From positions 1 to 36,236 of IMG/VR virus record IMGVR_UViG_3300034198_001469: a stretch of 36,236 nt of DNA. One strand, written 5' to 3'. The translations under genes and the position numbers were made by a program. Of this stretch, positions 1,953-30,226 are shown one piece after another. The stretch's first letter is position 1. Every line of letters begins with the position of its first letter. Origin of the DNA: a virus. The notes beneath the pieces are model-generated. The model saw only the letters and a program-made list of their open reading frames with translations, was not told the DNA's origin and made no database searches.

Positions 1953-2535
1953 TTATTTTTAATCCGTAACTTTGGAAATATATTTTTGATGCAATGGAAA
2001 TTTTACTTATGTCTTGTTCTAACCCAGTATTAAATTCTTTAGTAATAGAATTAAAATTAATTAGATCTAAACTATTAATTACAATAGTCCTAATCAAAAA
2101 ATCAAAATCATTTGCTAACATAACAAAAAATACTAGAGGATCAGACTGTTTATCTTTAAGTCGATTTTTAGCTGAATCTGATAGAGAAAATATCCATTGA
2201 TTGTTAGGCTTGTCCCATGTAACAGTTAGCTCAGTTGACTTAGTCGGTGCATCTTCAATCCACTCAAATACGTTATTTTTAAATGCGTATCCTTGATCGG
2301 TCTTTGGTGTTAGTGCTAAGATAGTTTTATTATCATTAGTACGGATATATCCTACTTGCCAATCATGGAATTTTTCTCGGCCATACAGAAATCTATCATG
2401 CTCTTCTAATGTAACTTCGATTCTATTTTTGTGTACTTCACTAATTTCGTTTCCTACACTTAAAATTTCACCAGTCTTTTTGTCGTAATGGAGATAGAAA
2501 CGAGGAGGAATAAATTTAGGTAATTTACGTGCCAT
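1945..2535 (-). CDS. Conserved phage protein of unknown function (196 aa)
   Basis: I do not recognise a domain. The protein is soluble-looking, with no signal peptide or membrane helix. The N-terminus MARKLPKFIPPRFYLHYDKK is basic and proline-rich; next comes a beta-rich half with several W and Y residues (WQVGYIRT, NNVFEWIEDAP, VTWDKPNNQWIFSL), then a more helical half from about residue 130. The pattern of a short peptide strand reporting 'GEILSVGNEIS' suggests a small beta-sandwich, but this is only impression. ATG at 2535 overlaps the upstream gene by 11 bp and has AGAGG 7 nt before it. Its place between two glycosyltransferase-like pairs suggests a related task. Confidence 0.75.
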   Translation of the reverse strand: MARKLPKFIPPRFYLHYDKKTGEILSVGNEISEVHKNRIEVTLEEHDRFLYGREKFHDWQVGYIRTNDNKTILALTPKTDQGYAFKNNVFEWIEDAPTKSTELTVTWDKPNNQWIFSLSDSAKNRLKDKQSDPLVFFVMLANDFDFLIRTIVINSLDLINFNSITKEFNTGLEQDISKISIASKIYFQSYGLKIND

Positions 2536-5541: not shown

Positions 5542-5557
5542 TTTTAACCTTTATTAA

Positions 5558-6457: not shown

Positions 6458-6465
6458 TATTTATA
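6458..6465 (-). promoter_or_regulatory. Late-type promoter box TATAAATA
   Basis: Reverse complement reads TATAAATA, a perfect match to the T4 late promoter consensus recognised by sigma-gp55. It overlaps the stop codon of the 497-codon gene and lies 21 nt before the ATG at 6436. Confidence 0.65.
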
Positions 6466-11926: not shown

Positions 11927-12538
11927 TTATACTCCCACTAGGCCAGTAAGTGTTTGAATACGTACTGTATAATCAATTTGAATTAGACGATTTAAACTTT
12001 TTTGCACTGGATGAAAAATTACATGTGTTAGTAATAAGCTATTACCAGTCGAACTATAACTTTGCAAACCTAATTCATCAAATACAAATGCACTTGTGTT
12101 AGTTGCCGCAGTATCAAATGCCTGTTGTCCAGCACTGCTACCATCACCATAGTCTAACAAACATGTAACAAATACATCAGTGTAGTTTGTACCGGTAACG
12201 TGACGTGTCTCGATATAGTTGCGTGTAGGATCAGTGTTTGTGCTAGAATTTTGATTAACTACTTTAAAATACTGTTGATTGTATAAACTAGCATTAGTAC
12301 CTGAACTGTTTGGAGTCAAATATGTAATAATTCCTGTAGGATCCACTGAGGTACCGCCATTACCAAATGCCATCTGTTGAATAAATCCTTGGCCGCTATC
12401 TGCTAAACTCTGTGCTAGAGCATTACTCATATTTTCATAATGAATAGCATTACGTTTGTTTACGTAGATTTCTTTAGTTTCAGGATCCCAGATTTTAATG
12501 TGCCCTTCTATATGGACTCCAGTTTGATCTTTATGCAT
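11927..12538 (-). CDS. Conserved virion structural protein (203 aa)
   Basis: A 203-residue beta-rich protein beginning HKDQTGVHIEGHIKIWDPET, with YVNKRNAIHYENMSNALA, QQMAFGNGGT, DPTGIITYLTPN and a C-terminal LIQIDYTVRIQTLTGLVGV. I recall similar short proteins beside tail-fibre genes in marine T4-like phages, but no enzymatic domain is recognised. It is the first gene after the 55-bp gap carrying a GATAAATA late-type box 20 nt before its ATG, with a weak AGAG ribosome binding site. It is followed 3 bp later by the collar-domain fibre gene, so it is likely a connector or adaptor for the fibres, or a tail-tip part. That role is inferred from position. Confidence 0.75.
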   Translation of the reverse strand: MHKDQTGVHIEGHIKIWDPETKEIYVNKRNAIHYENMSNALAQSLADSGQGFIQQMAFGNGGTSVDPTGIITYLTPNSSGTNASLYNQQYFKVVNQNSSTNTDPTRNYIETRHVTGTNYTDVFVTCLLDYGDGSSAGQQAFDTAATNTSAFVFDELGLQSYSSTGNSLLLTHVIFHPVQKSLNRLIQIDYTVRIQTLTGLVGV

Positions 12539-12593: not shown

Positions 12594-13820
12594 CTATCTT
12601 GCACCAGTAGTTCTACGTGGATAAGTTTGCCCCGTAGTAGGCCTAAATCCATAGTTTTGTTTAGGAAATACAGTTCCGGTACGTATTAGTTGATAGATTG
12701 ATGTGCCGACCATCGGGCCTAATCCTGTTACGCAATCCCATCCACTTGTTCCTGCATATCCGCTTGTAATTACAGTATTATTAGTTCCCACAGTTATATC
12801 AAAAAATGCACTAGGATTAGCATAGGCTAAAGTATTCCATTCAGGACTAGATCTTTTTGTACCGGTTAGTTGCATATATCTAGCTAGTATTCCTGCGAGT
12901 ATCGGACTTGAAAGGCTAGTTCCTCCTGCACCTGAAATCGCTCCGTTTTCATAAAACACATAAACATTCATCGGAGCTGAAATATCAGGCACACCTCGAG
13001 TAGATAGTGCGGTAGGACTACCAACAACTCCGCTAGTAATGGGAGTGTAATATAATCCGTTTTGCCAAGTAGGTCGCGAAAATGTAGTACTAATTCCTCC
13101 ACCCCCTCCCCATGTAGTACCAAATGATGCATCTCGATTGTCATCAGATTCAGTCTTACGAGTGTTATCAAGATTTAATTTTAGTTTAGTTCCACCAACT
13201 GACATTACATAAGGACTTGATGCCGGGTAACAAACCTGAAGAGAGGAGCCGGTTGTTGTAAGAGTCGATCCCCAATCTCCAGATGCTGCCAATACAGCAA
13301 TCTTGGCACTGGCAGCCTGCTGAAAATATGATTCTTCGCTTGTATATTCAGTATTTGCCCAACTAATAGTAATAATATGCATGCCGTCTGCTATAGCTCG
13401 AGTCATCATACTAGCATAACTATTACCAATATAAATTGTAATGTTAGCCTTAGGAGCCATGCATGCAGTACAATAAATGTCTACGGTGTTTTCTCCGCTA
13501 GCTCCCGTGTCAGCAGTGTATGATCCAGTTTGTCCATCTAATAATACTTGCCTAATAGTTGGTGCTGTAAGAGTTGAATCTATTAACCCGGCGGCTTGTA
13601 AGTCTGCAAATGAACTATTAAGGTCAGTTTGATAAAAGCCTCCGCCAAAACTAAAAATTCCAATGTTCACACCGTAGCCGGTAGAACTAGGAATGTTATA
13701 AGCAGTAGCGATCTGTGGAGGTGTCAGATAGTTGCTAGTATAAGAGCCAAGACCCGTCGGTGTTCCACTTACGTCAGAAGTTACATCAACTATTTTTAGA
13801 TTGGCAGGAGTATGACTCAT
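12594..13820 (-). CDS. Sedolisin-family (S53) serine-carboxyl peptidase, no prodomain
   Basis: A 408-residue protease with the full sedolisin active site. E110 and D114 sit in GENTVDIY (Glu-x3-Asp), D182 in ASGDWGS is the oxyanion aspartate, and S302 in GGTSLSSP is the nucleophile. The calcium site is recognisable: FFDIT (D341, I342) and GTSGWDCVTGLG (G360, D362), with one extra residue against the usual G-x-GWD. Other family blocks are the YLTPPQIATAYNIP start and VCYPASSPYVMSVGGT. Secreted sedolisins normally carry a prodomain of roughly 180 residues and a signal peptide; this protein has neither and begins almost at the catalytic domain. About 30 C-terminal residues end in PRRTTGAR, beyond the family core. 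It lies in the tail-fibre operon (TAA, one base, ATG after the repeat fibre gene), so a virion-associated or assembly protease is likely. Substrate unknown. Confidence 0.92.
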   Translation of the reverse strand: MSHTPANLKIVDVTSDVSGTPTGLGSYTSNYLTPPQIATAYNIPSSTGYGVNIGIFSFGGGFYQTDLNSSFADLQAAGLIDSTLTAPTIRQVLLDGQTGSYTADTGASGENTVDIYCTACMAPKANITIYIGNSYASMMTRAIADGMHIITISWANTEYTSEESYFQQAASAKIAVLAASGDWGSTLTTTGSSLQVCYPASSPYVMSVGGTKLKLNLDNTRKTESDDNRDASFGTTWGGGGGISTTFSRPTWQNGLYYTPITSGVVGSPTALSTRGVPDISAPMNVYVFYENGAISGAGGTSLSSPILAGILARYMQLTGTKRSSPEWNTLAYANPSAFFDITVGTNNTVITSGYAGTSGWDCVTGLGPMVGTSIYQLIRTGTVFPKQNYGFRPTTGQTYPRRTTGAR

Positions 13821-13821
13821 A

Positions 13822-15810
13822 TTAGAATTCTAATTTTAAGTATGTTAGCGTTACAGTAATAGCTGTTGAAGATCCGCTATTATTGTAGATTTTTAAATAA
13901 GCATTTGTTGAAACGGTTCCGTCATTATTGTATCCAAACACTGCTGGTGTAAAACTAGTTGTTATTGCCGAGGTTGATATTGATTCAGCAATAACACCGC
14001 TACCCGGTGTTGGATCAGTTGTAATCAATCTACTAGAATCACTGCTTTGCGCACTTGAACTAGAATATAATGTTACCCATGCGCCGGCAGAAGCTTGAAT
14101 ACTATACAATGCATATCCTTTGGCCATAGTCACGGTAGCTGTTACACTAGCCGCATTTGCTAAAGTTGTAGTAGTAGTTGCTACCGTATTTCTGCTGGCA
14201 CCAACAGCACTGATTGTTCCGCTACTAATTGTAATGGTAGAATTGTCTACTTTGACTCCACCCAATACACTATTGCTAGCAGTTGGTAGTGAATACTGAG
14301 TAGCTACTAACTGATTGCTACCATTGAGTGTAATTGTCGTACCGTCAATTTTCACACCACCTAACTGGCTTGCACTTGCTACTGCGAGGCTAATTGTACC
14401 ACTAGAATTTGTAATGCCGCTTGTGGCAACGGCTGGGACTATTACACCGCCAAGTGCTGATGTAGTCGTGGCTGGCAGTGTATAGTTACTTGTATTAATT
14501 GTAACTGTTGCCGTACTTCCTGTACCAGTTGTCGTAACTCCGCTACCGGTAAAGTTTACTGTAGTAATTCCAGCACTTGTGCCCTGTGTAACTCCGCCAG
14601 ATTGCACTGTAACTCCCTGGATACCGCTACCAGCGCCGCCAGTGTTAACTGATGTCATTAGACCAGTGCCGGAATTATAACTAAATGTCAAGCCAGTATT
14701 TGCTCCGCCGGTAAACATTGCGGCTGCTACCGCTCGAATATTACTAGCAATAGCACTAATAGTTCCTGCGTTAACGTTAATTGTTGTACCGTCAGCTATT
14801 ACTTGACCAAGTGTACTGGTAGTTGCTACTGGAAAATTAACTGAAAGTTGATTGCTAACGTTTAACACAACTGACGCATTATCAATCTTTACACCACCTA
14901 GTGTAGTAGTGCTGGCAGCTGGTAATGTATAGTTAACATAGTTAGATGTTATTACTCCACTGCCGTTAATGGTTATAGTTGATCCATCAACTTTTACACC
15001 ACCTAACTGGGTAGTACTTGCAGTAGGTAATGAATACGCACCGTTGGCCGCTGTTATAATCCCATTGTTTATTGAAATTGTTGTGCCGTCAACTTTTATA
15101 CCACCTAGTGTTGAAGTACTAGCTGTTGGTAAAGTATAAGTGTATGGTGCTGTGATTACGCCATTACTAATAGTAACAGTTGAACCGTCAACTTTAACAC
15201 CACCTAAAATTGTTGTAGTTGCTGTTGGAAAACTTGTACTAATTACACCATTGTTAATTGTAATAGTCGTGCCGTCAATCTTTACGCCACCTAATATACT
15301 TGTTGTCGCAGTAGGCAATGAATATCCGCTGGGAGTAGCACTGATTATGCCTCCACTAATTGTAACTGTTGTTCCGTCAACTTTCACACCGCCTAGTACG
15401 CTAGTTGTTGCTGTTGGAAGTGTGTAGGTATACGGTGCAGAAATAACTCCGTTAGTAATTGTAGTTGTTGTCCCATCAACTTTAACTCCGCCTAATACAT
15501 TTGTAGCGGCTGTCGGTAATGTATATTGCTGAGGTGCTCCAATCAATTTAGCATAACTTAAACTAGTAATCCACACTGGATCAGCATATGATCCAGTTGT
15601 CTGCACGTTGTTAATAGCATTTGAAGTAGTCCAAAAAACACTAGTCCCGTCTGTGCTAAGTACCTTACCTGTTTGGCCGGCTGTTAACGGTATTGTAAGT
15701 TGTGAATATAATTCAGTAAAGTTTGAATTAATTTTTATACCTGCGGTACGTAGGGAATCCCCTTGACCATCGTTGGCCACTGTTCCTGTGCTAATTAGTT
15801 GTTGCGTCAT
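13822..15810 (-). CDS. Repetitive tail fibre protein (662 aa)
   Basis: Structural fibre. The N-terminus GTVANDGQGDSLRTAGIKIN plus SNFTELYSQL is a common phage fibre attachment segment. Residues 96-354 contain eight tandem units of about 30-35 residues with consensus Y(T/S)LPTA-T-S-x-LGGVKVDG(T/S)T(V/I)TI(S/N)NGVI; residues 443-536 contain three more. A glycine-rich spacer, about 355-442, separates them (GGAGSGIQGV, GTGSTATVTI). The C-terminal domain (about 537-662) includes MAKGYALYSIQASAGAWVTL, TDPTPGSGVIAE and ends LTYLKLEF. I recall similar ends in other marine phage fibres. GAGG lies 8 nt before the ATG. The repeats likely build a trimeric beta shaft. The next gene downstream is the sedolisin. 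Confidence 0.85.
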   Translation of the reverse strand: MTQQLISTGTVANDGQGDSLRTAGIKINSNFTELYSQLTIPLTAGQTGKVLSTDGTSVFWTTSNAINNVQTTGSYADPVWITSLSYAKLIGAPQQYTLPTAATNVLGGVKVDGTTTTITNGVISAPYTYTLPTATTSVLGGVKVDGTTVTISGGIISATPSGYSLPTATTSILGGVKIDGTTITINNGVISTSFPTATTTILGGVKVDGSTVTISNGVITAPYTYTLPTASTSTLGGIKVDGTTISINNGIITAANGAYSLPTASTTQLGGVKVDGSTITINGSGVITSNYVNYTLPAASTTTLGGVKIDNASVVLNVSNQLSVNFPVATTSTLGQVIADGTTINVNAGTISAIASNIRAVAAAMFTGGANTGLTFSYNSGTGLMTSVNTGGAGSGIQGVTVQSGGVTQGTSAGITTVNFTGSGVTTTGTGSTATVTINTSNYTLPATTTSALGGVIVPAVATSGITNSSGTISLAVASASQLGGVKIDGTTITLNGSNQLVATQYSLPTASNSVLGGVKVDNSTITISSGTISAVGASRNTVATTTTTLANAASVTATVTMAKGYALYSIQASAGAWVTLYSSSSAQSSDSSRLITTDPTPGSGVIAESISTSAITTSFTPAVFGYNNDGTVSTNAYLKIYNNSGSSTAITVTLTYLKLEF
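14203..14484 (-). repeat. Second cluster of LGGVKVDG repeats (3 units)
   Basis: Codons 443-536 of the repeat fibre gene encode three units (SALGGVIVPA, SQLGGVKIDG, SVLGGVKVDN cores) with a period near 95 bp. They are more diverged than the first cluster. Confidence 0.8.
14749..15525 (-). repeat. Tandem LGGVKVDG repeat array (8 units, ~90-105 bp each)
   Basis: Codons 96-354 of the fibre gene. The core LGG(V/I)K(V/I)DG recurs about every 30-35 codons. On the plus strand this shows as CCGTCAACTTT-like blocks near 15475, 15375, 15275, 15186, 15087 and 14985. DNA identity between units is high in the core and low at the edges. Confidence 0.9.
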
Positions 15811-15814
15811 TTCT

Positions 15815-18800
15815 TTATCCTCGATCGAATGTTATATTACCGCTATCTAGCGATGTTGAACTAGTGTCAAATGTTGAAGGACCAGTCGATACTGTACTTA
15901 CCTGTTTAAAGTCCTTATACCAGATACCGGGAACCGCCTTAAGGAAATTAGCTATTTGACTTGTATCATTTTGAATATTAAGTGTGCTGTCCCACGCAAT
16001 TCCTTGACGTTGAACTACTGTGATAACATTATTCACTGCTAGCGGAGTTGTTAGTCTAATTTTTGCACTAGTCCCGTCTACAGCAAAATCAGCATCTAAC
16101 TGTAGGTCTCCTTCGGGACTAGCTGGAGCGATATTGACATTATGAACCATGTAGGGTTTTTTCTTTAATCGAATATTTCCCACAAAGAAAGTCCATTTTC
16201 CAGCTGTAAAATCTGATTGGAAAACTGTTCCGCTTGTGTGCGTTACTGTACACTTGTATGTATAACTACCTAGTGTAATAATAACTCCAGCAAGATATGA
16301 AGTATTTGCAGTCCATACTGAGCTAGTATCATATCCGCCTACGAATACTTCAATGTTGTCACACTGACCATATCCTGTAGGAATACTGGATGTGTATCCA
16401 GAAGAATAATTCCACGTGGTTGCAGTTTTCTTTGGAACAAAATTAATATCATACAGATTAGATACACCATCTGCTACTATCTGTTGTGTAGTAGTAGTTT
16501 CAGAATAAGGTATAGTTTCACTTGCACCAATTTCTTGTACCCACGATCCAATATGATGTATTATGGGAGTTCCGGTACCTAATGTTCCTCTACGTAAATT
16601 TGTTAGAATCCAATGACTCGAAGTTACATCTTGTGTAAGTGCAAAGAATTCAATGCGCTCGCCTCTAATCTCAATAATACCAGGTTTATTATTAGAAGTA
16701 TTAGGAAGGTCAAATTTACTTGCATCTGCAACTACTATCTGTGTATCATTGTAGTATAGTGGATTAACAAGATATGTTTCTTTATAAAGATTTAATCGTT
16801 TAAAATGCACACGATTTAACATATCTTTAAATTGCATATATGAAATGCCAGAATTTAATATATTACTACTATAAGTTATAAAGGTTATCGTATCAGTTCT
16901 AACTAAATTTAACGCCATAGTTATTGAAGTATGGTCATCATTTAGTTTATAATCAACTGCTGGTACAAGTAGTGAACCATTTTTAATTATCCAGACATAT
17001 CCGTCGTTAGCAACATATCTATTAAGTTGTATGATTCCGCCAGTAACTGCTTTGTAATTAAAGAAAGTCACTGTATCAGGTGTTAGTTGCAAACTAGTAG
17101 TAACGTTAATATCTGTACGTTGGATATCTAATACATCATGTCTATAACTACTGATTACTTCAATATTATGGGTATTGTCATAGTTCTGTGTAAATGTAAT
17201 AGTCCCGGTAGTTGAGTCATAAGCATAGGCTTCGTTGCTAGTGACACTAACAATTAATTTTAATCCAGTATAGGTAGTATACGTAGACTGATTAATGCTG
17301 ATTGTAATACCACTTAAATCAACGGTATAATCAGTGCCAATAGATAATAACACACCGTTGGCATAAACTTTTATGTTTTCAAGAGCCACGCTATACGGTA
17401 AGAAAGCAGTCGGATCAATTTTATATGATAATTTGTTATTGGCAATGGTAAAATATGAATTATTAGGCCCTAATAATATTTTTTGATCGACACGAACTAA
17501 CATACTTGTTTCTAATGGCAAACTGGTGCCAATTGGATATTGTAGATTGTAAGAATTTTTTCCTGTACCTACTAAAGTTTCTGTTTTTGTAATAGCAAAT
17601 GTCTGTTGGCTACCGCTGACAATGATATAGTTAATTAAACTATTTTTTGCAGGCGGTGATGAAAAACGTAAACCTATACGATTAGCACTCACATAAGTGT
17701 TATCTGTTTTAAACAATGCTGGAGTTATAGCAGTACCGTTAACGTAGACTAAACTAGTAACCGACGATAGCCACGGCGCTTTGGTGATAAATTCAAGAGT
17801 ATTGCCGTCACCTACAAAATAATCAATATCTAAGATATTACTTCCGTTAAATCCTAAACTGAATATACTAACTGTTGCATTAGATGACGGTGCAGATGTA
17901 AAAATTATTTGTTTATTAGCATAGTCTATACTATAATCTGTTCCGTAAGTGTTAATTGTGCTATTAGTTTTTACAATAATTGCACGAGGACTTGATGGAG
18001 TCTGACTAATTTTAAATTTTGTAGTGGAACCGTTAGCAATAAAATTATCAACTTTAATATTTGCACTTCCAGAATTAGGCTGATCATAAACTTTTATTGC
18101 TACTGCATCAACGACTTGTCCCGGTACTACTTCTTCCGGAGCGGGACTTGATGTAGGTGTAACCATACCATCACCGTCAACTATAATGTCTTCTGCCGCA
18201 ATACCGATCGCACTAGAATAAGACATATTTCCGCCTGATAACGCAGTATCGTAATCGTTTTCCTGTGGTTTAATCGAACCGTCGCTAGTACTTTGACGTA
18301 TAATAAATGTATCACCGTCGTGTGCTGGATAACTGCTAGGAATAGTAATTACAGTAGGGTTAATTCCATCAGCAATAGGAGTTTGCATGACAATAGTACT
18401 ACCAAACGGTAAATCTGTTATAACATTTGCACCACCACCGTCATCTATACTACTGTAACTATCGCTCGCACTACCGTCATCTACTGTAGAGCCTGCGGTC
18501 AATGAGCCTGCTGAACCACCATCTAATGGAACTACAGGCGCCACATAGGTTAAACTATCAATTCTAACTGGGTTATAATTTCCGGTTACAGTTAAGACAC
18601 TACCGGCAGTGATAGCAGTTTTTAAAATTATAGTACTATTTGTTGATATTGTATAGTTTATAGGTGTTGATAGTAAATGTGAAAATACTATAGACTGGCC
18701 GGCTGGTATGTTAGCATATAAAATTTGACTTAGTGTAACTACATTAGTTTGAGTATTAATTGCCTTAACTGTAGTTCCGTAAGAGAATGAACTTGATCCT

Positions 18801-21800
18801 GCAGAGGTCACAACATCACCTAGTTTAATACCAGTAATACTTGTTAGTCCTAATAAGAAAACTCCCGCTAGGTTAACCGTAGATGTTGTTGCAGTTGATG
18901 TTAGTGTTGTTACTACACTAACTGTAGGATATAGATCATTAGACGAATAACTATATTTTAAAGTAGAGCCATCAGATACAAATGTATCAACTTGTTGATG
19001 CACATAGTAGACATTTAATTGTGTGCCAGCTACAGGAATATAGGGCAATGTTAAAGTACGTTGGCCGGCAGTAATTGTTACAATATAATCATTGAAAGTA
19101 GAGTCAAACGTGTCCCATTTATCCGATGCATACGGTAATGCTCCCCAACCTGCCGAAACATCAAATCCTAATCCGTTGACAATGACACCACCATAGTCGA
19201 TACCGGTCATAAGTTGCGTTAGATCATTACCGATTTGTCCGCTTTGTGGGTTGTAATAAAATTGAATTCTATCTGCCGCTGTTAGCAACGACCAGTCTTT
19301 GACGTATGTAACTTTAACAACTGCACCGACTGCTGGAGAAGTAGCGAATGTAACTAATCCCGAGTAGGTAGTATATCCTTTATTAGTTGAAGTTTTTACA
19401 GATAATGTATACAAGTCTCTTAAAACAGTGATATCATTAATTGTGACAGTAGTTTGACCAATTCTTAAATCAGGAGCCCAAGTTAAATTAAACTGTAGTT
19501 GAGTACCTGTTACAGTAAATGTTTCAGTTTGTTGTAATTGTGTAATATAATAAGTTTGCGACACTCGATCAAATTTAATCTTAACTAGCGCAGATCTAAT
19601 AACACCATGTGGCTGATCACTAGCATAACTGTTGCCAATAACAGCTATTGCCCTAGCGGCAGTTCCATCTACACTTGTACCGCCGTCAATAATTACTGTA
19701 GGAGCTGACAAATACCCAGTGCCATGAGTTAATAATACAATTCTATTAACTACGCCATTAGAGAAAAATGCGCGAGCAGTAGCACCTGTGCCTGAATCAC
19801 TAATTATTCTAACTGTTGGTTCTGTAAAATATCCACTGCCTCCACTGACTATTTTTAAATCAGTAACTACAAAGCCAACATTATCAAACCAATTTTTCCA
19901 AGGATATGTGTTTACTATTGCATTATCTGATAAAACTTTTCCACCCCTGATATAAGTTTGTATAGGGGAGAATCTTGAATTTTCATACACTGAAGGAAGG
20001 TCAAAGTCGGTTATTAAAGTTTTAGCAGTATCAACTTTTGAATATGCACTTACATATTCTCTAATTTTAGTTCTATAGGGTTTAACTTCTGCTACATACT
20101 CTTGGAAATTAGCAAGATTATCAGTTTGATAATTAACTGGTTGATTCAATGTTCCAATATTATGAGTCGCTTTGATTAAACTAGTTTTAAAAATCCAATC
20201 TAAATAGGTTTGTTCACTTAGTGCATATCGTACACTAGTAAAGAATAAATCAAGATAGGTCTGTTTTAATTCATCAGTAAGGATATCATCTTTTAGTACA
20301 GTTAATATTATTCTAAGTTCAGTAGTAGCTACAGTATCAAAAGGAACACCGTCAAATGTGCTATCATCATACCCGATACTAGTATTGGCAAACTTATATA
20401 AGTCAGAGCTTAATTTAATTGTTCCTTTCTCTAAACCAACAACCTTATAAGATTGTGTCCAATCTGTTGATGTGGAATTAGCATATTTGTAAAGTAACTG
20501 CCAGCCGTGAGTTGATGAAGTTGCAACATGTACTAGTTGTCCTACTTTAGGAGTTATAGTACTTAATTGTGCAAAAGTTTCAAGATAAAAATCAGATGCT
20601 GTTAATGAACTGTAACCAGTAGCATACCAATCAACTGACGACCAATAATTTCTAACGTCATATGTTTTAGACTTTATTCTAGACCAAACTTTTCCTGTAG
20701 GATCATAACTGTATATAGACCATGTATTCTGATTCTGACTATCACTGTAAACTAATGCCGAGTAGTCTCTAACAATAGAAACAGCAGTGGCACTATAACC
20801 TTCGCCGCTTTTTATTACCACTGATCCTGTAATTTGTCCTAATGAGTTAATTGTCGATCTAACTACTGCTCCTACACCATTACTATCTACTATTTCTATA
20901 TACGGAGCGTACAAGTAACCTGCACCTGCATAATTTATAGTGATGCCGGTAATTTTTCCATCAACAATCACTGGACTTAGATCAGGACGTCTAAATGCAC
21001 CAACACTTATGTAACTCAACTCAGCATCAGTATCTGATGTTACATCATAAAGGCCGCTTGGTAATATCTTTGTACCGTCAGTTAGCGTTACAAAATCAGG
21101 ATATTTGTCATATGAATTTAATGCAGTTAATTTTTTTGTTTCCTGGATTTGATTAGAGGCTAGCACTACATTAACTTTTTCTATTACTTGTTTTAGTGCT
21201 TCAAATCGATTGATAAACATGCTCTGACGAGGACGATTTTCAATGCCGTAGCGCAATTTAGGCGGCTGTGTTAAATCTGGGACTGGGCGATCATTCAAAT
21301 CTTTTCCGCACAAACTGTCAAACCATTTTTGTTCAATCGTTGCCGGTATAGTAGTTGAAATATCATCATTAATAATTTTCCAATGGCTATGAACATTTTG
21401 ATCTGTCTTAGAAGTTTTCCAATATTCAACTGATAGTACTACATCAATTCCTTTTAAGACAGGTTTAACATTAACTAAACTAAATGAATCTAATCCTGTT
21501 AAGGCAAGATATTCGTAACCTTGTCCTCTTGGGTTTCCGATTAACGATGCAGTGTCGGCGGCTGACATATATCGACCGGACACGGACGGAACTATAGTTT
21601 TGTTTTTTACCCAGAAATAATATGTATTTTTAAATGTTTGACTTATCGTGTCAAAGACCTGGCTAATACTATATGAAGTATTTCCGTATAAACTCTTGCC
21701 ACTAATACCTAATGCCAGGCCTTGCTCTGTATCAGCTAGGCTATCCCAAGCAGCCGGTAGGTATGTGGTTGAAACCCATTCATAAATGTCAATGCTCGCA

Positions 21801-24800
21801 CCAGTAGATAATGTATTCCAAAAGCTATTTCTATATACTACATCAGTGTCATTTGCATCAATAAACTTAGCTGTTCTTAAATCCCACCATAATTTTCCTA
21901 CTTGAGATTTTGTCCAAGGCTTGTTTGTATTAACTGTTACTGTAGTATCTCCAATCGAATATACTGCTGGGTCATAGAATGATGTAAATGTTATTTCTTC
22001 AGCGGCGATTCCTGGAATTTTTCCTTGTAGAGGATCAACAACATCTAAGTGTTTAATTAAATCACCAGTTTTTCGATTATATAAAAATGCTCGTTTAACT
22101 TTTGTTGCATCTGGTCTATCGCTTTCAACTCTAGATAATGTCCATGTGTATGCCCCGTTATTTTTATAATAATCATAAACCTGGCCAGATGTGTATGTTT
22201 GATCAAGTGCCAACGGTGCCCCAACGATAACATGATTTGCGCCAACTGCAAACCCAGTTCCATACGCATCGCTAGTTAAATTGGTAGTGGCTAGAGACTC
22301 AGCATAAACCCATTTTGAATTATAATTGTCGTAAATGTCTATCTTGCCGCTGTTAGGATCTTTGGTTGTAAATGCAGTACTGTTTTTATCAAATGTAGTC
22401 GGTACTGTGTTTATATTAGTTTTACCATCAATAGTTTCTCGAGTATCGAGCACGTATGGATTTCCGTAGAGTGTTTGGCTGTTACTAAGTCTAGTTTTAT
22501 GATCATCAAAACTCATTTCTCTGATAGTATCAGCATTAGCACTATAAATCACTAAAGTTTTGTCAGACATGAACGCTAGTGTTTTACCAAAGTTTCCACT
22601 ATTCTGGGGAGCATGATTAACTATTGTTTGATAAGGGCTGTATGAATTATTAGTTAATTTATAAACTATCACAGCTCCCTGATTTACATCAATTCCCTTA
22701 GCGAATGGATCACCCACTGCAAGATATGTACCGTCATTCGACAATGCGATACTAGAGCCGAATGTTAATGTAGTTCCTGTAATAGTAGCAGTAAGTCCCG
22801 ATATGTTATTTGAAATTACTTTAACTACTCCGGTTGATCCACCGGATACTGTATATGCATAGGCAGTTTGTCCATCACCGCTGGTTGTAATCGAATTGCC
22901 TAGTACTTTTCCGTTTTCTGCTAAAGCAGAATTAAAGAACCAACCGTTTACTGAGAATTTTAAAACACCTGACGGGGTGCTATTGGGACTACCACTTAAC
23001 AATAACGTTGTAGAATTAACAACTGTTAATACTGTTTGTCCGCTGGTGAATCCTATTCCGGTAACTATCATGCCTGGCAAAATTCCTGCGGTACTAGTCA
23101 CAACTATAGTTGCTCCGCTACTACCTACTGGATTATATGCAGTACTTGCCTCTTGGACACTGCCATAGACAAATGAATATATTACACCACTACCCGGTGC
23201 ACTGACTAGTATTTCACTAGTAAATGTGCTGTTGTTAAACGGGTTAGAGCCGGCCGCATTAAAAAATTGTATAGTGGATCCAAACAATTCATTTAACTGT
23301 GGATTAGGGCTAATGATAGTATCAACTAGTGTATAGATGTTATTAGTGTCTTTCTTATAAAGACTAATTACCCCTTGTGAAATTAAATTACTAGTTGTGC
23401 CTGACGAAGAAACAGGAATATAAGGAATATTTTCCCAATAACTGTTTGATACGTTGCCGACGGTAGGTGCGTGATTGATTGATACGGCTACTAGAGCTTG
23501 ATAAAAATAATTATGGCCAATTGATACTATATCGCCAATTGCATAGGTATTAGACGAAATATACTCGCCTAGATACTTAGAGTATGCATAACCTACTGTC
23601 GGACTGCCAGTTACAAGCCAAGTACCGTCTGCACTAAACGCTACTGTGCTAGCAACAGTTCCTGGGAGAGGTGTATGTAATACACTAGCAATAAATGGCT
23701 GTTGTACAACTTCTCGTTGGGTCCAAGCAGACACAGGTGACGCTTTATCCCAAACAATAACTTCACCATTAGCTGTTGAGATTCCTAAAATATTTCCGTT
23801 CTTATTAATTGCCACAGTTCGGCCATAGTTCAACAAAGAAGCAGGGCTAGTATTAATTAAGGATGATTTACTATAAACTGGATTATATTTCCAAACTCCC
23901 CATTTACCTGTTCCTATATCGTCAGTCCATAACAATTCGCCGGCAGTTAATCGTAAAGGAATAATAGAATCGATATCATCTATAGAACTAGTACGTTGCG
24001 ATAATAATGCAAAAATTACTATTTCGGTTAATTGAGTAAATGGTGCAGACCAACTTGCAGGTTTAGCTGTTACGGTAAACGAATTTAATGTAACGCTAGT
24101 TATTTGATAAAAACCATTTATATTTGAAGTTTGACTAATACCGATCCAAGATCCTACAGGTAATGTTACACTATTTTGAATTGAAATTGTAAGTACGCTG
24201 ACGTTATCATATGTTACACTAGTAACATGAAAATTTACATCTGTGAATCTATAAACATTCCAGCTGGTGTTCTCAAATGCGCACCATATATAAGATCCGT
24301 TGTTAAACGTAGTAATGTCATACTTAACGATTTCAGACAACTGTCCGAGGCTGATAAACACGTCTGATGACCTAACATATCCAGCACTACGTAAATATGT
24401 CTGGGGCGCAGTTAGTTGTGGCCACAGTGCATTATTGTATCCGGTAGGTTTTAGGTAAACATCAGTCGGTGTCTGACGAATAATATTATCGTAAGCTGTG
24501 GGATTAGGCTGATTTACTAATGAAAATCCTTGAGGATTATTTTTAAATAATGACTCGTCTAAAATAAATTCGATATTGTCAAAAGCACCGCTAGCACCAT
24601 ATTGGCCGAGACGTATTGCCCATTCTTCATAAAATTTTAAACTCTCTTGATTATCAGAACTAAGGACATCAAACAATTTGTTTAAAACATTTTGTGTGCC
24701 TTTTTCTCTAATCATTCCTTGATAAAATTTGAACTCACTTACATCATCTTTGATAATATTATCTAAGTATGAACGCTTTTGATAACCAATTAGGTGTTGA

Positions 24801-27800
24801 GCAACTTGTTGTTGCATTGAATCAAAATTATCACTGTCTAAGCTATAAAAATCTTCAAACTGGCCGGCTTTATAGTTCCAGTTAGGCAACAACTCAGCGG
24901 TAGGAGCCTTAGTTAATTTAATCCACATTGCTGGATTAAATGTTTCAGTTCCTTGCAAAAATTTATCAGCACTGTAGTAAAATTGTTTATACTTAACAAT
25001 ATCACCTAGGTTATAATCTTGCCACGGTTCCCAATCATTTATAATAGCTTCATCAAAAATAAATCCTGGTACATCAAATCCGCCGTACCAATCTATACTA
25101 ACATATCCTGAAATTTTGATGCGCTCTTGGCGATAGCCAGTTGCAGGGGAATAGATAGTGTCACCGAACATAGTTGTATTGTTTAATATTACAACTTGTT
25201 CATTTTGTATTAGATAAAAACTTGCACCGTATATTCCATCATTGGTTCTAGAACTATAACTAACTTCATTATTTTCTCTATAAGAATTAATAAAAGTAGA
25301 CTCTAACGGGGTACCATCTACTTTTACTATTTCATAGTTGTTAAATGGATTAGTAATGTTATCTACAACTGCTAGTGTAGTACTAAACGCAATTTTTGAT
25401 GCACTTGGGCTTAGACTAATAACGCTACTGCCAACAGTGCTAAGGCTATCTAGTTTAACAAAATTGTTAGCATTGAATTGTAATGATGCAGGGACATTCT
25501 TTACTGCCCTGTAGTAAATTCCGTTATATCTTACAATATCGCCGCTGGCGATAGTCAATGACGGCGACCATGTTACCCACTTATCTCGTCCAGAACTCCA
25601 ATTTTGTGTGCTCCAGAACATAAATTCCTTAGCACTAGTTTCCCAGTTAGTCACAGCATTTAGTTTTGCATTATATTCGTCAAATATAAATCCTTGGTCT
25701 TTTAACCATTCACCGTAGCCTAATAAAAAATCTACAACTTCTTGTACCGATGAAAACACAGTGCCGTATGGGACCACTGTAGGTTTAGTTCGATCCCATG
25801 TTTTTCTAAATATAGCGTTCCTGCCGCCTATTACTGGCAAACTAGTTAAAGAAATATAATACACACTATTAAAAGTATTTGTTGTAGTATGTGTAGTTTT
25901 TACGCGATAGTATGTAGCACCATACTTAACTATAGTGCCGGCAGCGTATTGTTGACTTTCAGACCATGCTGTGTAAGTTTCAGATATTCCGCCAACATTA
26001 ACTGCGGCGCCAGATTGTGTATAAGGATAATATTTAAAATATAATTGTGTCTGGCTGTAACCTTTAACTTCGTATCCTGCATTTATTTTGGTTACTATAA
26101 TGCCGCTATAAGCAATTTTTTTAATTGGACTAGAACTGTTTAAAATAATAGAATAATTTTCTTGTGGGACAAATACACTACTAGTTGAAGCATAGGTTTT
26201 AGAATCTAACAATAAATTAAATTTTTCTTTACTAGTAAATGCTCCTATCCTATAACTGAGATTAGCTCCAATGTTAGACAAATCATATTGATACGACGAA
26301 TAAGATTTTAAGTTATCACTTAAAATAAAATTTACAAGATAATTTATAATTCCAGCAGTACGTATGCCTGTAGAATTATTATATGTTGTAAGTAATTTAA
26401 TATCACTAGGTTTAATTCTTAATCCAGTATCACTGTACACTATTTGACCTGCAATATTACGGACTATGCGTGATCTATCTAATAGTAATCCAAATGTTTT
26501 AGCAGGAGTCAACAGCATAGATACTAGTAAGACACTAAATGGATAGTGACTGCTACGACGCCATGCTGACTCTACTGGGCCAACGTCTCCGAATATGTAC
26601 CCTAAACTAGTATCAAGAGTAACAGTGCCCACTGCTAATCCTGCCTGCAGAGGACTAATTAAATTTCCAGAAACATCAACTGGAATATGTTTAATTAAGA
26701 ACGGCTTGGCATATTTAGGAAGTTTTACTGTAGCGATTCCCGGTTGTCTTACAATTCCATCTGTAATATCTTGCCACATTGGAGTATTGTCGCTAGTGTA
26801 AGGAGCAGGACCATATACCTGTGTCCACCAACTAGGTTGAATAGTAAATCCTAACATTTCCCAAGGGCAAATATTAGGGCGATCAGTGTCTAACAAATAT
26901 CTATATATTCCTCTCCAATAGCCTGGTACAGTTGATCCGTCTGGGGCACTATGACCTTGATAATTATAACTAAAGCTATTAGTAATATCGTAACGAATCG
27001 GTTTAGTAAAATCTTGATCTATTAAACTAGACCATTTATAAAAACTAGGTGCCAAGGTTTGATCAAACTCGGTTCTACTAAAGGCATTAGATCGATTGTA
27101 ACTAGGAACTATATCAGCAATGTCGTATATTGTAGGATCATACTGTACTTTAATATTATTAAAGATTCTTTTTTCTAATTCTAAAATAACCTGATCTCTA
27201 TAATCTCCATAGGCAGCAATTTGACTACCGTCATGGCCCTGTATCATTAAAACAGGATTGATTAAGGTTGTATCTAAATAAATTTTAGGTTCGTACTTTG
27301 GCCAAATCCCTAACTTAGTAGGGGTTTCGGGAACAAAACATCCGTCAGTGTTTAGATATTCTCGAGTGGTAATAGTATCGCCATTAGTTAATGACACTGA
27401 ATTGTCTATTACAACAAATCCTTGATCACTAAAAGTATACTGTGTACCATACAATAGTTGTGTATTATTTAGATAAACACCTACTGCTTTATTACTTAAA
27501 CTAGCTAAGGTAAACACATTAGTCAATGGATAGTTTTTAATTCTATAATCAATAACTGTCAAATTAGTTACAATAGTAGCACCGTAGGGAACCATGTCAC
27601 TGAAGTAATATGGACTAGTGTTCGGTTTATTAGCGTTGACTTTCTGTAAAATTAGATCAACAAGAGTTGATGTATCACCATCAATACCTAATGATTCTGC
27701 AACTGAAATAAAATTTCTTTTAAAAATATTATAATCTTCACGATTTTTTTCAATAGCACGAACTATATTATTAGTTTCGGATGTAGTATGATATACTGAC

Positions 27801-30226
27801 AAGCTCATAGGGCCGCTGTGCTGAACAAACTTTGTTCCGTATGCTGTAATGTTTCCTAGGTCTCTTAAATTACTATCTCCCGGATATATTCCAGAGAAGG
27901 TAGTAAGATTATCAACAATTGAACTTACATGATCGATGACTTCGCCAAGCGTAAATGTTCCAATATCTGCGTTTAATGGATTATTTTGCAAGTTTACGGG
28001 AATTTCATAATACCCATTTTTATTAATTGGCTGAGCCGCATAGGCTTTAATAGTTAATATATCAGTTGATGCTAGATCAGATGTTAATTTAATTTTTTTA
28101 TAAATCGTATCATCAACTAACGACCATGTGGCAGGATCAACACGATACCCGTTAATATAAACGCGAACAACAAGATCATTAAGATTTGTTATATCATCAA
28201 AAATATCTAATGGAAAATTATTTTTTAAATTGCTATTTTTATAAATTCGAATAGCCGCTTGTGTATATGATGCTGTGCAGGTCGTCCATCCGTTCTTATA
28301 AACTACATTACCGGCATAGTCTTGACTAACTAAGAATCCGGTGTTGACTCCCACCGTTGTAAGAGCTGTAGTAGTAAGTAATTTATACTGAAAACTATCA
28401 GTTACTAGGGCAAAGTTAAAGACAATATCACCGATATTATTAATATTTTTATAGGTTAAGGCAAATCCTAGACTAGTGTCTGCTGTACCTTTTCCTACTG
28501 TATATCCAAACACCGGTGTACCTTTAAAAGTAGTTCCAGGATAGGTTGCGGTATCACCGAACGATACTTTGTTACTATCAACTATATCAAATAGAGGTGG
28601 TTGATTTACTGAAAGTTTTTGTTGTGCTGTTTTCCAAGTAGTGCCGTTATACCAATACATTTGCCCAGCATTATTTGTACCTTGTTTAACTAATGCCACT
28701 TGATTAAGTACAGGAGTTGCATAAGGTACTAGATGAATTTGATTATAACCTTGTATATTAATAAAGGTAACTTTATAAATGTTATTTTTAACTAATCTAT
28801 CAGTGTCTGCTGTAAATAAAATTAACTGGCCTTGTGTTAACGATATACCATCAACATTGTATCCTGCACTTCCTTCAATTGTTGAAAACACATCTTTAGT
28901 AAATGTATCTACTACGTCAATATCAGATATTGCCTGCGTTCCAAAATTGAATAATTTTAAATCAGCATTAAATTCAATAATAGGTCTTACAGCTCTTGCA
29001 GTTTGATCAAGATTAACTGTCTGGCCAGATAATTTAGCACTAGTAGCTATAACATCTTTATGGAACCAACGATTATATCTCGACCACGGATTATGATCTC
29101 TACTACCGCGATTAACAAGAAGGTAATCTTTAGTCAACGCAAATCCAGTTGCATCACTAAATGGCTGAGCATCAAATGGAGTTGCATCAAAATATACTGC
29201 TTCGGATATCGTATAAGTTGTTACAATTTCTAATATGTTTTTATTAATTAATTTAATAGCATCGCCAACCCCTTCAACATAAAATTCTGCGTCGGCATAT
29301 TCAATTGGGGTAACATTACCGCTAAATGCAACTTTCATTCCGTTGCTTAAAGATGTTCCATCAGGGAGTGTGTATGTTTTTTTACCTAAAACATCTTTCA
29401 CTACATCAATAAATGTATCTGCTGTTATATCAAAAATTTCTATTGCGCCGCCAATATTTTGATCATCGTCGCTTTGATAAAATAACAAACTAGGTGCATC
29501 GACAGGAACTTTAAAAGTAATAGTTCCGGAAACTACACCGTTGGCGCTAACACCTTCCGTATATCTATCGGCTAAATTTGTATTTTTTGCAATTTTAAAA
29601 CTAAAAGGATGTCCGGGACTAGTAATATTAAATTGATAAGTTTGTCCTCTGTATAATCGCAATACCGGATTAGGAGTATCACCGTCTGGTGTGAACACAT
29701 ATTGATTGTCAGCACCTACTGATTGTAGATTAACTGTATATGTGCTAGTAATAGCTAGTTGCTGGCCCGGAATTGTTATTGTTGCCGGGCCATAGGGTAG
29801 CCAGTAATAGTTTTGAAAGTTTACAAACTTATCCCAGTCAATGTGCGGATCCCATGAATAAAATTCTTGAGCGTTTACCCTGGCGTGGTTAAGTGTATTT
29901 CCGCCGAATACACCTAATTGATTAATATAGTCAATATAATCTTTAAAGAAAGTAACATTTCCCAGAGGATCTTGAACTGTAAATCCTGGTTCAAGCTGAT
30001 AGTTTTGACGGGCATCGTCTGCCGCATTAACATATATGTCAGTGCCTAATGCCGCTTTGGCATTTTTTCTGCCTATAAAGCCATTAACTTTTTTTACAGT
30101 GCCTGGTTGTACTAGTTGTTCAATAGTGGCTTGTAAGAATTTCTTATTAGCATCAGTCTTAAAATAGTTGGGTAAGAAATTTACTGCGATAGCAGATGTA
30201 CCGGTAGGTATATTACTGTTAGCCAT
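15815..30226 (-). CDS. Giant mosaic virion (baseplate-associated) protein, 4803 aa
   Basis: One uninterrupted frame encoding about 0.5 MDa. Residues 1-150 (NFLPNYFKTDANKKFLQATI, QLVQPGTVKKVNGFIGRKNA, NYQLEP, DPHIDWDKFVNFQNYYWLP) resemble the large structural protein after gp6 in marine T4-like phages, as I recall it. Residues 170-267 look cupredoxin-like (LYRGQTYQFNITSPGHPFSF). Near 836-882 is SVAESLGIDGDT...SPYYFSDM. Chitin-binding-like (CBM5/12) modules with the W-x(n)-Y-x(2)-G-x-I-V-x-Y pattern lie near 1413, 1550, 1732, 2217 and 4635. An FG-GAP-like beta-propeller spans about 2120-2700. GxGY...APxV repeats lie near 3095, 3455 and 3500. From about 3560 to 4500 are repeated small beta modules (VYVNGTAI, VYANGVLL), then RRGTLGTGTPIIHH near 4550. 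The start overlaps gp6 by 8 bp, with GGAG 6 nt before the ATG. A wedge, sheath-contact or fibre-anchor role is inferred from position. Confidence 0.85.
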   Translation of the reverse strand: MANSNIPTGTSAIAVNFLPNYFKTDANKKFLQATIEQLVQPGTVKKVNGFIGRKNAKAALGTDIYVNAADDARQNYQLEPGFTVQDPLGNVTFFKDYIDYINQLGVFGGNTLNHARVNAQEFYSWDPHIDWDKFVNFQNYYWLPYGPATITIPGQQLAITSTYTVNLQSVGADNQYVFTPDGDTPNPVLRLYRGQTYQFNITSPGHPFSFKIAKNTNLADRYTEGVSANGVVSGTITFKVPVDAPSLLFYQSDDDQNIGGAIEIFDITADTFIDVVKDVLGKKTYTLPDGTSLSNGMKVAFSGNVTPIEYADAEFYVEGVGDAIKLINKNILEIVTTYTISEAVYFDATPFDAQPFSDATGFALTKDYLLVNRGSRDHNPWSRYNRWFHKDVIATSAKLSGQTVNLDQTARAVRPIIEFNADLKLFNFGTQAISDIDVVDTFTKDVFSTIEGSAGYNVDGISLTQGQLILFTADTDRLVKNNIYKVTFINIQGYNQIHLVPYATPVLNQVALVKQGTNNAGQMYWYNGTTWKTAQQKLSVNQPPLFDIVDSNKVSFGDTATYPGTTFKGTPVFGYTVGKGTADTSLGFALTYKNINNIGDIVFNFALVTDSFQYKLLTTTALTTVGVNTGFLVSQDYAGNVVYKNGWTTCTASYTQAAIRIYKNSNLKNNFPLDIFDDITNLNDLVVRVYINGYRVDPATWSLVDDTIYKKIKLTSDLASTDILTIKAYAAQPINKNGYYEIPVNLQNNPLNADIGTFTLGEVIDHVSSIVDNLTTFSGIYPGDSNLRDLGNITAYGTKFVQHSGPMSLSVYHTTSETNNIVRAIEKNREDYNIFKRNFISVAESLGIDGDTSTLVDLILQKVNANKPNTSPYYFSDMVPYGATIVTNLTVIDYRIKNYPLTNVFTLASLSNKAVGVYLNNTQLLYGTQYTFSDQGFVVIDNSVSLTNGDTITTREYLNTDGCFVPETPTKLGIWPKYEPKIYLDTTLINPVLMIQGHDGSQIAAYGDYRDQVILELEKRIFNNIKVQYDPTIYDIADIVPSYNRSNAFSRTEFDQTLAPSFYKWSSLIDQDFTKPIRYDITNSFSYNYQGHSAPDGSTVPGYWRGIYRYLLDTDRPNICPWEMLGFTIQPSWWTQVYGPAPYTSDNTPMWQDITDGIVRQPGIATVKLPKYAKPFLIKHIPVDVSGNLISPLQAGLAVGTVTLDTSLGYIFGDVGPVESAWRRSSHYPFSVLLVSMLLTPAKTFGLLLDRSRIVRNIAGQIVYSDTGLRIKPSDIKLLTTYNNSTGIRTAGIINYLVNFILSDNLKSYSSYQYDLSNIGANLSYRIGAFTSKEKFNLLLDSKTYASTSSVFVPQENYSIILNSSSPIKKIAYSGIIVTKINAGYEVKGYSQTQLYFKYYPYTQSGAAVNVGGISETYTAWSESQQYAAGTIVKYGATYYRVKTTHTTTNTFNSVYYISLTSLPVIGGRNAIFRKTWDRTKPTVVPYGTVFSSVQEVVDFLLGYGEWLKDQGFIFDEYNAKLNAVTNWETSAKEFMFWSTQNWSSGRDKWVTWSPSLTIASGDIVRYNGIYYRAVKNVPASLQFNANNFVKLDSLSTVGSSVISLSPSASKIAFSTTLAVVDNITNPFNNYEIVKVDGTPLESTFINSYRENNEVSYSSRTNDGIYGASFYLIQNEQVVILNNTTMFGDTIYSPATGYRQERIKISGYVSIDWYGGFDVPGFIFDEAIINDWEPWQDYNLGDIVKYKQFYYSADKFLQGTETFNPAMWIKLTKAPTAELLPNWNYKAGQFEDFYSLDSDNFDSMQQQVAQHLIGYQKRSYLDNIIKDDVSEFKFYQGMIREKGTQNVLNKLFDVLSSDNQESLKFYEEWAIRLGQYGASGAFDNIEFILDESLFKNNPQGFSLVNQPNPTAYDNIIRQTPTDVYLKPTGYNNALWPQLTAPQTYLRSAGYVRSSDVFISLGQLSEIVKYDITTFNNGSYIWCAFENTSWNVYRFTDVNFHVTSVTYDNVSVLTISIQNSVTLPVGSWIGISQTSNINGFYQITSVTLNSFTVTAKPASWSAPFTQLTEIVIFALLSQRTSSIDDIDSIIPLRLTAGELLWTDDIGTGKWGVWKYNPVYSKSSLINTSPASLLNYGRTVAINKNGNILGISTANGEVIVWDKASPVSAWTQREVVQQPFIASVLHTPLPGTVASTVAFSADGTWLVTGSPTVGYAYSKYLGEYISSNTYAIGDIVSIGHNYFYQALVAVSINHAPTVGNVSNSYWENIPYIPVSSSGTTSNLISQGVISLYKKDTNNIYTLVDTIISPNPQLNELFGSTIQFFNAAGSNPFNNSTFTSEILVSAPGSGVIYSFVYGSVQEASTAYNPVGSSGATIVVTSTAGILPGMIVTGIGFTSGQTVLTVVNSTTLLLSGSPNSTPSGVLKFSVNGWFFNSALAENGKVLGNSITTSGDGQTAYAYTVSGGSTGVVKVISNNISGLTATITGTTLTFGSSIALSNDGTYLAVGDPFAKGIDVNQGAVIVYKLTNNSYSPYQTIVNHAPQNSGNFGKTLAFMSDKTLVIYSANADTIREMSFDDHKTRLSNSQTLYGNPYVLDTRETIDGKTNINTVPTTFDKNSTAFTTKDPNSGKIDIYDNYNSKWVYAESLATTNLTSDAYGTGFAVGANHVIVGAPLALDQTYTSGQVYDYYKNNGAYTWTLSRVESDRPDATKVKRAFLYNRKTGDLIKHLDVVDPLQGKIPGIAAEEITFTSFYDPAVYSIGDTTVTVNTNKPWTKSQVGKLWWDLRTAKFIDANDTDVVYRNSFWNTLSTGASIDIYEWVSTTYLPAAWDSLADTEQGLALGISGKSLYGNTSYSISQVFDTISQTFKNTYYFWVKNKTIVPSVSGRYMSAADTASLIGNPRGQGYEYLALTGLDSFSLVNVKPVLKGIDVVLSVEYWKTSKTDQNVHSHWKIINDDISTTIPATIEQKWFDSLCGKDLNDRPVPDLTQPPKLRYGIENRPRQSMFINRFEALKQVIEKVNVVLASNQIQETKKLTALNSYDKYPDFVTLTDGTKILPSGLYDVTSDTDAELSYISVGAFRRPDLSPVIVDGKITGITINYAGAGYLYAPYIEIVDSNGVGAVVRSTINSLGQITGSVVIKSGEGYSATAVSIVRDYSALVYSDSQNQNTWSIYSYDPTGKVWSRIKSKTYDVRNYWSSVDWYATGYSSLTASDFYLETFAQLSTITPKVGQLVHVATSSTHGWQLLYKYANSTSTDWTQSYKVVGLEKGTIKLSSDLYKFANTSIGYDDSTFDGVPFDTVATTELRIILTVLKDDILTDELKQTYLDLFFTSVRYALSEQTYLDWIFKTSLIKATHNIGTLNQPVNYQTDNLANFQEYVAEVKPYRTKIREYVSAYSKVDTAKTLITDFDLPSVYENSRFSPIQTYIRGGKVLSDNAIVNTYPWKNWFDNVGFVVTDLKIVSGGSGYFTEPTVRIISDSGTGATARAFFSNGVVNRIVLLTHGTGYLSAPTVIIDGGTSVDGTAARAIAVIGNSYASDQPHGVIRSALVKIKFDRVSQTYYITQLQQTETFTVTGTQLQFNLTWAPDLRIGQTTVTINDITVLRDLYTLSVKTSTNKGYTTYSGLVTFATSPAVGAVVKVTYVKDWSLLTAADRIQFYYNPQSGQIGNDLTQLMTGIDYGGVIVNGLGFDVSAGWGALPYASDKWDTFDSTFNDYIVTITAGQRTLTLPYIPVAGTQLNVYYVHQQVDTFVSDGSTLKYSYSSNDLYPTVSVVTTLTSTATTSTVNLAGVFLLGLTSITGIKLGDVVTSAGSSSFSYGTTVKAINTQTNVVTLSQILYANIPAGQSIVFSHLLSTPINYTISTNSTIILKTAITAGSVLTVTGNYNPVRIDSLTYVAPVVPLDGGSAGSLTAGSTVDDGSASDSYSSIDDGGGANVITDLPFGSTIVMQTPIADGINPTVITIPSSYPAHDGDTFIIRQSTSDGSIKPQENDYDTALSGGNMSYSSAIGIAAEDIIVDGDGMVTPTSSPAPEEVVPGQVVDAVAIKVYDQPNSGSANIKVDNFIANGSTTKFKISQTPSSPRAIIVKTNSTINTYGTDYSIDYANKQIIFTSAPSSNATVSIFSLGFNGSNILDIDYFVGDGNTLEFITKAPWLSSVTSLVYVNGTAITPALFKTDNTYVSANRIGLRFSSPPAKNSLINYIIVSGSQQTFAITKTETLVGTGKNSYNLQYPIGTSLPLETSMLVRVDQKILLGPNNSYFTIANNKLSYKIDPTAFLPYSVALENIKVYANGVLLSIGTDYTVDLSGITISINQSTYTTYTGLKLIVSVTSNEAYAYDSTTGTITFTQNYDNTHNIEVISSYRHDVLDIQRTDINVTTSLQLTPDTVTFFNYKAVTGGIIQLNRYVANDGYVWIIKNGSLLVPAVDYKLNDDHTSITMALNLVRTDTITFITYSSNILNSGISYMQFKDMLNRVHFKRLNLYKETYLVNPLYYNDTQIVVADASKFDLPNTSNNKPGIIEIRGERIEFFALTQDVTSSHWILTNLRRGTLGTGTPIIHHIGSWVQEIGASETIPYSETTTTQQIVADGVSNLYDINFVPKKTATTWNYSSGYTSSIPTGYGQCDNIEVFVGGYDTSSVWTANTSYLAGVIITLGSYTYKCTVTHTSGTVFQSDFTAGKWTFFVGNIRLKKKPYMVHNVNIAPASPEGDLQLDADFAVDGTSAKIRLTTPLAVNNVITVVQRQGIAWDSTLNIQNDTSQIANFLKAVPGIWYKDFKQVSTVSTGPSTFDTSSTSLDSGNITFDRG

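Follow-up and report, generated by a model that had tools for sequence, protein, structure and literature searches.

A prodomain-less sedolisin (S53) peptidase gene paired with a phage tail-fibre gene, and a C-terminal tail resembling that of S8 peptidases at equivalent sites

The window, that is, the whole stretch of 36,236 nucleotides analysed here (positions 1 to 36,236 of IMG/VR virus record IMGVR_UViG_3300034198_001469), contains a phage tail operon in which a peptidase gene follows a fibre gene. The open reading frame (ORF) lies at 12594-13820, on the minus strand. A first-pass annotation, made from the letters alone, had placed it correctly between tail genes. The fibre gene upstream (13822-15810) is 1 nt away, and 55 bp separate the ORF from the tail gene downstream (11927-12538). 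The features of the locus are listed below in the direction of reading.

15815..30226, minus strand: giant tail/baseplate protein of 4803 aa, upstream of the fibre-protease module
13822..15810, minus strand: gene for the 662-aa tail fibre that partners the protease; its variable stalk carries LGGVKVDGTTITI-type repeats
13828..14193, minus strand: beta-sandwich domain conserved at the fibre C-terminus (C-domain), aa 540-661, E 2e-56; proposed socket
13821..13821, no strand: the one base that separates the fibre stop codon from the protease start; the spacing is 1 nt in most homologous loci
12594..13820, minus strand: gene for the S53 peptidase of 408 aa, which has no prodomain; its stop codon is at 12594-12596
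13728..13820, minus strand: N-terminal segment of 31 residues (aa 1-31), in place of the prodomain region of ~140-175 residues in sister proteins
12672..13727, minus strand: S53 catalytic domain, aa 32-383 (kumamolisin alignment, AF2, Foldseek)
13650..13652, minus strand: Ser57, where kumamolisin has Glu32 (alignment)
13491..13493, minus strand: catalytic Glu110, kumamolisin Glu78 (alignment and codon check)
13479..13481, minus strand: catalytic Asp114, kumamolisin Asp82 (alignment and codon check)
13275..13277, minus strand: oxyanion Asp182, kumamolisin Asp164 (alignment and codon check)
12915..12917, minus strand: nucleophile Ser302, kumamolisin Ser278, in GGTSLSSP (alignment and codon check)
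12735..12800, minus strand: calcium-site loop bounded by Asp341 and Asp362, a residue shorter than its kumamolisin counterpart
12597..12671, minus strand: conserved tail, predicted to be disordered, of sequence VFPKQNYGFRPTTGQTYPRRTTGAR (aa 384-408); putative docking peptide
11927..12538, minus strand: conserved tail protein of 203 aa that marks the site

Downstream of the fibre genes, positions 401-4205 hold a run of ORFs, several of them glycosyltransferase-like by eye. Two adjacent paralogues of 308 and 292 aa (4615-6436) match no Pfam family and have relatives in homologous loci.

The peptidase ORF encodes a complete S53 (kumamolisin/sedolisin) catalytic domain. In a phmmer search of the PDB, kumamolisin is the top match (E 1e-35, residues 32-379), followed by kumamolisin-As, sedolisin and TPP1. 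The AF2 model (pLDDT 85.7, pTM 0.88) has a subtilisin-like fold of ~350-380 residues that is nearest to the sedolisins, its best Foldseek matches being pro-kumamolisin (1t1e, E 8e-26) and kumamolisin-As (TM 0.83-0.84, target length). The top 17 PDB matches are all S53, and subtilisins rank behind them. Pfam reports only the clan relative S8 (PF00082), and weakly (7e-8). Assignment to the S8 subtilases, with their Asp-His-Ser triad, was rejected because the S53 acids are present and the S53 alignment spans the full catalytic length. The Glu/Asp/Asp/Ser set is accompanied by the S53 signature G-T-S-x-x-x-P around the serine; the roles of kumamolisin E78, D164 and S278 have been described (PMC8004986).

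Scans of IMG/VR gave 27 loci and then 58, from which 44 distinct phage S53 proteins were aligned, a lower bound on the number that exist. The four active-site residues named in the first-pass annotation were confirmed codon by codon and are invariant in all 44. Its calcium-site residues also stand as a predicted site, with D341 conserved in 44 and D362 in 43 of the 44 proteins. By contrast, the one-residue insertion claimed for the calcium loop does not hold, as the stretch from D341 to D362 is shorter by one residue than that of kumamolisin and prodomain-bearing phage relatives have a loop of equal length. No copy is recognisable in any phage of a collection of ~50,700 records, since tblastn returned no match there at E<=1e-5. 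The nearest GTDB matches are ~30% identical and come from Bacillota (including Sulfobacillus), Thermoplasmata and Enhygromyxa, in a non-exhaustive scan seeded with patterns from the phage alignment. One metagenomic copy (L011/L056, IMGVR 3300020733_000017) is frameshifted, probably through an assembly error, and has a near-identical intact twin (L010/L050). The 345-kb contig of L005 encodes a second protease (L259:4568-6112), a tail-less S8 enzyme of 514 aa; the single C-domain of this contig lies elsewhere. As a sign of a cyanobacterial host, psbA was sought in 10 contigs and was absent from them.

Prodomains are normally required for the folding of such proteases. In 25 of the 44 distinct phage proteins, ~140-175 residues lie N-terminal of the catalytic domain, and Pro-kuma_activ was matched in every one of these that was submitted to Pfam (E 3e-8 to 2e-15). 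Only ~30 residues precede the domain in the other 19, the protein of the window included. Thus, the initial description of a phage sedolisin without a prodomain is right for the window, where 31 residues precede the catalytic domain, but this protein belongs to a set of at least 44 distinct phage S53 proteins of which over half have a prodomain. There is no room for one in frame, because the frame stays open just 3 codons past the ORF start, and the DNA upstream of the ATG is occupied by the conserved C-domain of the fibre. A separate prodomain-like gene, for which the first-pass annotation had proposed a scan, was not found either, as Pro-kuma_activ (PF09286) had no match at E<=1 either in the window itself or in 10 clade-1 records related to it, the largest of 345 kb. 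The absence of a signal peptide was borne out by eye, the N-terminus being devoid of a hydrophobic signal segment.

The 19 prodomain-less forms are one group in the maximum-likelihood tree (SH-aLRT 96), so that a single change of state suffices. In all cellular relatives, the in-frame sequence at the N-terminus is long (162 aa or more) and, consequently, loss of the prodomain is by parsimony the likelier direction, its absence being the likelier derived state of one supported clade. Position 57 follows the same division, with Glu in 25/25 prodomain-bearing forms and Ser, Ala or Gly in 19/19 prodomain-less forms; Glu is also found there in most cellular relatives. The equivalent Glu32 of kumamolisin, which is the residue altered in 1t1g (sequence comparison with 1gt9), is taken here to be part of the proton relay of that enzyme. 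As both losses fall on one event, a connection between them is suggestive only. S53 enzymes mostly act at acid pH. Several of the source metagenomes may, we presume, be low-pH freshwater bog lakes, an origin that would suit an acid protease.

The gene that precedes the peptidase is a consistent partner. At each of the 33 stand-alone (non-fused) sedolisin loci examined, the fibre C-domain forms the C-terminus of the closest ORF upstream (E 1e-44 to 3e-58), and the gap is usually 1 nt. The stalks of these fibres are unrelated between loci, with window-like starts (MTQQLI..), collagen-like GPTGPTG repeats and others, and their last ~122 residues are one conserved domain. The genome context also varies, some loci being in a window-type tail operon and others elsewhere. 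Structure modelling predicts the C-domain to be well folded; it has no sequence relative in Pfam or the PDB, and its fold matches are weak and to beta-sandwiches only. Copies with no accompanying protease exist as well (in L231 and L236-L238, and as second copies in two contigs), so the domain has a role of its own. In one of these second copies (L258:1243-2109, G016), and in the matching copy of G014, a C-domain fibre lies directly before the homologue of the 11927 gene with no protease, and the fibre-sedolisin pair sits elsewhere in the same contig. The capsid and baseplate proteins of Sinorhizobium phage Phosso are among the nearest isolated relatives. In this phage, the giant virion protein is directly followed by the homologue of the 203-aa gene, with neither fibre nor protease at the orthologous site, so that the pair behaves as an insertable module.

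At the other end of the peptidase, the stand-alone phage sedolisins examined finish in a conserved tail, with the consensus ..FPKQNYGFRP..G..YPR.., which is predicted to be disordered in the AF2 model. Under a strict rule, G.(1-4)[YFW]PR within the last 60 aa, the motif was present in 37 of 40 phage sedolisins, in 14 of 30 other proteins encoded downstream of a C-domain and in none of 311 background ORFs of the same loci. This rule misses L079, whose tail is the variant YPKQNYAFR..APAYPR, and most of the remaining non-sedolisin cargos have a looser or internal [YF]PR.

These other cargos are, as a rule, S8 subtilases. The C-domain was recognised in at least 460 candidate stretches and in 42 phage records, 40 of them from Synechococcus phages, and where no sedolisin follows it, the next gene is again usually 1 nt away. 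For instance, the C-domain precedes S8 proteases in S-CREM1, ACG-2014h, S-H38 and many IMG/VR contigs, and the downstream gene is annotated as a peptidase or subtilisin-like protease in S-CREM1, S-H38, S-WAM2 and others. PF00082 was matched in 7 of 9 non-S53 cargos tested (E 6e-18 to 3e-29). The cargos of L207, L209, L212 and L228 have subtilase-like motifs such as GTSCATP and gave no Pfam S8 match where tested. The tail of the S8 cargos ends in a similar ..G..[YFW]PR.., or this string precedes an appended domain; about half of them have only the looser or internal form. An I9-type prodomain on the S8 cargos was not confirmed by a profile search of the PDB. No third type of cargo emerged when viral contigs were scanned at the DNA level for the tail pattern; the matches were sedolisins and unrelated ORFs that carry the motif internally. 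In the viral contigs L134 and L136, the pattern matched the same short ORF, whose product is not phage-like in look.

Tail and C-domain are missing together from proteases that are fused to other domains. In L054 (7971-12212) and L055, a prodomain-less sedolisin is joined to an Ig-like region of ~1000 residues (He_PIG and Big_9 domains) and has neither the C-terminal tail nor a C-domain neighbour; the 76.7-kb record of the Ig-fusion sedolisin contains no fibre C-domain anywhere. The Ig-like stalk was also compared with the 4803-aa protein of the window and bears no similarity to it. In S-SCSM1 gp144 (NC_070962.1 189576-193811; L260), a protein of 1411 aa with an N-terminal S8 domain, the YPR tail and the upstream C-domain are likewise both missing. 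Mass spectrometry identified 45 virion proteins in S-SCSM1 (PMC9602691), and the membership of gp144 in the virion rests on the note 'virion protein' in its record. Thus, tail and C-domain co-occur and are both dispensable under covalent attachment, as would be expected of a docking pair. Moreover, since the Ig fusion is without both prodomain and socket, the catalytic domain of the prodomain-less clade probably folds without either.

Among known systems, kumamolisin and kumamolisin-As (MEROPS S53; 1t1e, 1t1g, 1gt9, 1sio) share the fold of the window protein, at ~30% identity in the structural alignment, together with the Glu-Asp-Asp-Ser site, the calcium-site Asp residues and the equivalent of Trp129 (W154). 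By contrast, the window protein has no prodomain or signal peptide, has Ser at the Glu32 position, carries an additional C-terminal tail of 25 residues and is encoded in a phage tail operon. The prodomain-bearing phage S53 proteins (L012-L026, L028, L057-L087 and others) are ~40% identical to it. They have the same C-domain partner, tail and active site, and in many contigs the same tail operon, but differ in having Pro-kuma_activ and Glu at position 57. The S8 peptidases of cyanophages (S-CREM1 SCREM1_165, S-H38 gp095, ACG-2014h gp177) have the same clan SB fold, with genes that start 1 nt after a C-domain fibre or overlap its stop, and many end in a [YF]PR tail; unlike the window protein, they have S8 catalytic residues and another N-terminal region of ~75 residues. 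The S53 proteases of Barrevirus, Homavirus, Terrestrivirus and Sylvanvirus (BFVD) are also viral and share the sedolisin fold, but these proteins of giant viruses, which are not phages, are longer and have no tail-fibre setting. In the nearest isolated jumbo-phage lineage, gp329 of Agrobacterium phage Atu_ph07 and a 1291-aa protein of Phosso are S8 proteases, which differ in family and in being much longer, and neither genome has a fibre C-domain. Atu_ph07 gp329 (NC_042013.1 257634-261389; L257; 1251 aa) lies near the tail-fibre gene gp327 and closes a gene cluster with many virion proteins detected by mass spectrometry (PMC6102473). S8 peptidases in cyanophages were already known, with S8/peptidase clusters reported in T4-like cyanophages (Sullivan et al. 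2010, PMC3037559), as were S53 proteins in giant viruses. No description of a phage S53 peptidase, or of a tail/socket pairing common to S8 and S53, was found in the open literature, although absence there is not proof.

From these observations, we infer that the window encodes an active S53 peptidase that is borne on the virion, is docked through its tail on the fibre C-domain and cuts protein of the host surface or matrix at adsorption, a reading to which we give a probability of roughly 0.6. The protease would be co-translated with the fibre protein encoded just upstream, and its flexible tail would bind the ~122-aa beta domain at the fibre C-terminus, which would put the enzyme at the tip of a fibre or on a baseplate pin. 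From that position, it could cleave proteins of the host surface or of the surrounding matrix during adsorption. In the branch to which the window belongs, loss of the prodomain would mean that the catalytic domain must fold alone and is born active; such an enzyme may be kept under control by assembly onto the fibre, by a narrow specificity or by being only weakly active at the pH of the cytoplasm. More broadly, the socket would accept clan-SB proteases, S8 in cyanophages and many metaviromes and S53 in Rak2/Atu_ph07-like jumbo phages. We put at about even odds the wider proposal that fibre-tip domain and C-terminal peptide form a common socket through which S8 and S53 proteases serve as swappable virion cartridges across fibres and lineages, one S53 branch having become prodomain-independent, born-active and re-tuned by the change from Glu32 to Ser.

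The first-pass annotation had already suggested a virion-borne protease, which remains plausible, and had listed fibre trimming during assembly among its possible roles. A maturation protease, made with the fibre, would trim it or another tail protein and then be lost or persist as a by-product. The immediate co-translation across a 1-nt gap would suit such an enzyme, processing domains are frequent at the C-terminus of phage fibres, and the window fibre at 6461-7954 has a weak C-terminal match to a Peptidase_G2/IMC-like autoproteolytic domain (PF11962, E 2e-4, below the Pfam cut-off). Nevertheless, the fusions to an Ig-like stalk (L054/L055) and, in S-SCSM1, of S8 within a noted virion protein point to a structural location. 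In addition, a conserved tail exchangeable between S8 and S53 is unexpected for a transient processing enzyme, and the would-be substrate stalks are unrelated between loci although the enzyme is constant. The two-gene module with the fibre, which other phages use for S8, also speaks for an enzyme docked on the tail rather than a protease acting freely in assembly, and we consider maturation unlikely. Release at lysis, or secretion, of a soluble protease to break down host debris, competing receptors or matrix would fit a stand-alone ORF with an intact active site, and the sedolisins characterised from bacteria and fungi are usually extracellular. However, the lack of a signal peptide, the obligatory linkage to the fibre C-domain and the conserved tail make it quite improbable.

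Conservation of the active site bears on whether the protein is an enzyme at all. If the S53 fold were retained only as a binding module, a catalytically dead adhesin, the catalytic residues would be expected to drift, and the loss of both prodomain and accessory Glu at position 57, in a family of proteases that normally need prodomains to fold, might be seen as steps in that direction. Instead, Glu/Asp/Asp/Ser, Asp341 (44/44) and Asp362 (43/44) are kept at an identity among the phage homologues of only ~40%, and we regard an adhesin as very unlikely. An unexpressed gene or a misread start, with a prodomain in another frame or a gene in decay, has the frameshifted metagenomic copy in its favour. 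That copy has its intact twin, however, 19 prodomain-less proteins are conserved, and the short open frame before the ATG and the C-domain that fills the upstream DNA leave this explanation hardly credible.

Virion-borne depolymerases are known mostly for sugars and peptidoglycan. If the docked, virion-borne peptidase is real, a widespread site on tail fibres at which proteases can be exchanged would imply that many aquatic phages have to cut surface protein in order to infect. The tail and socket are a small, testable pair, and a sedolisin without a prodomain beside prodomain-bearing kin offers a natural comparison to show the part played by prodomains in the folding, inhibition and pH dependence of these enzymes.
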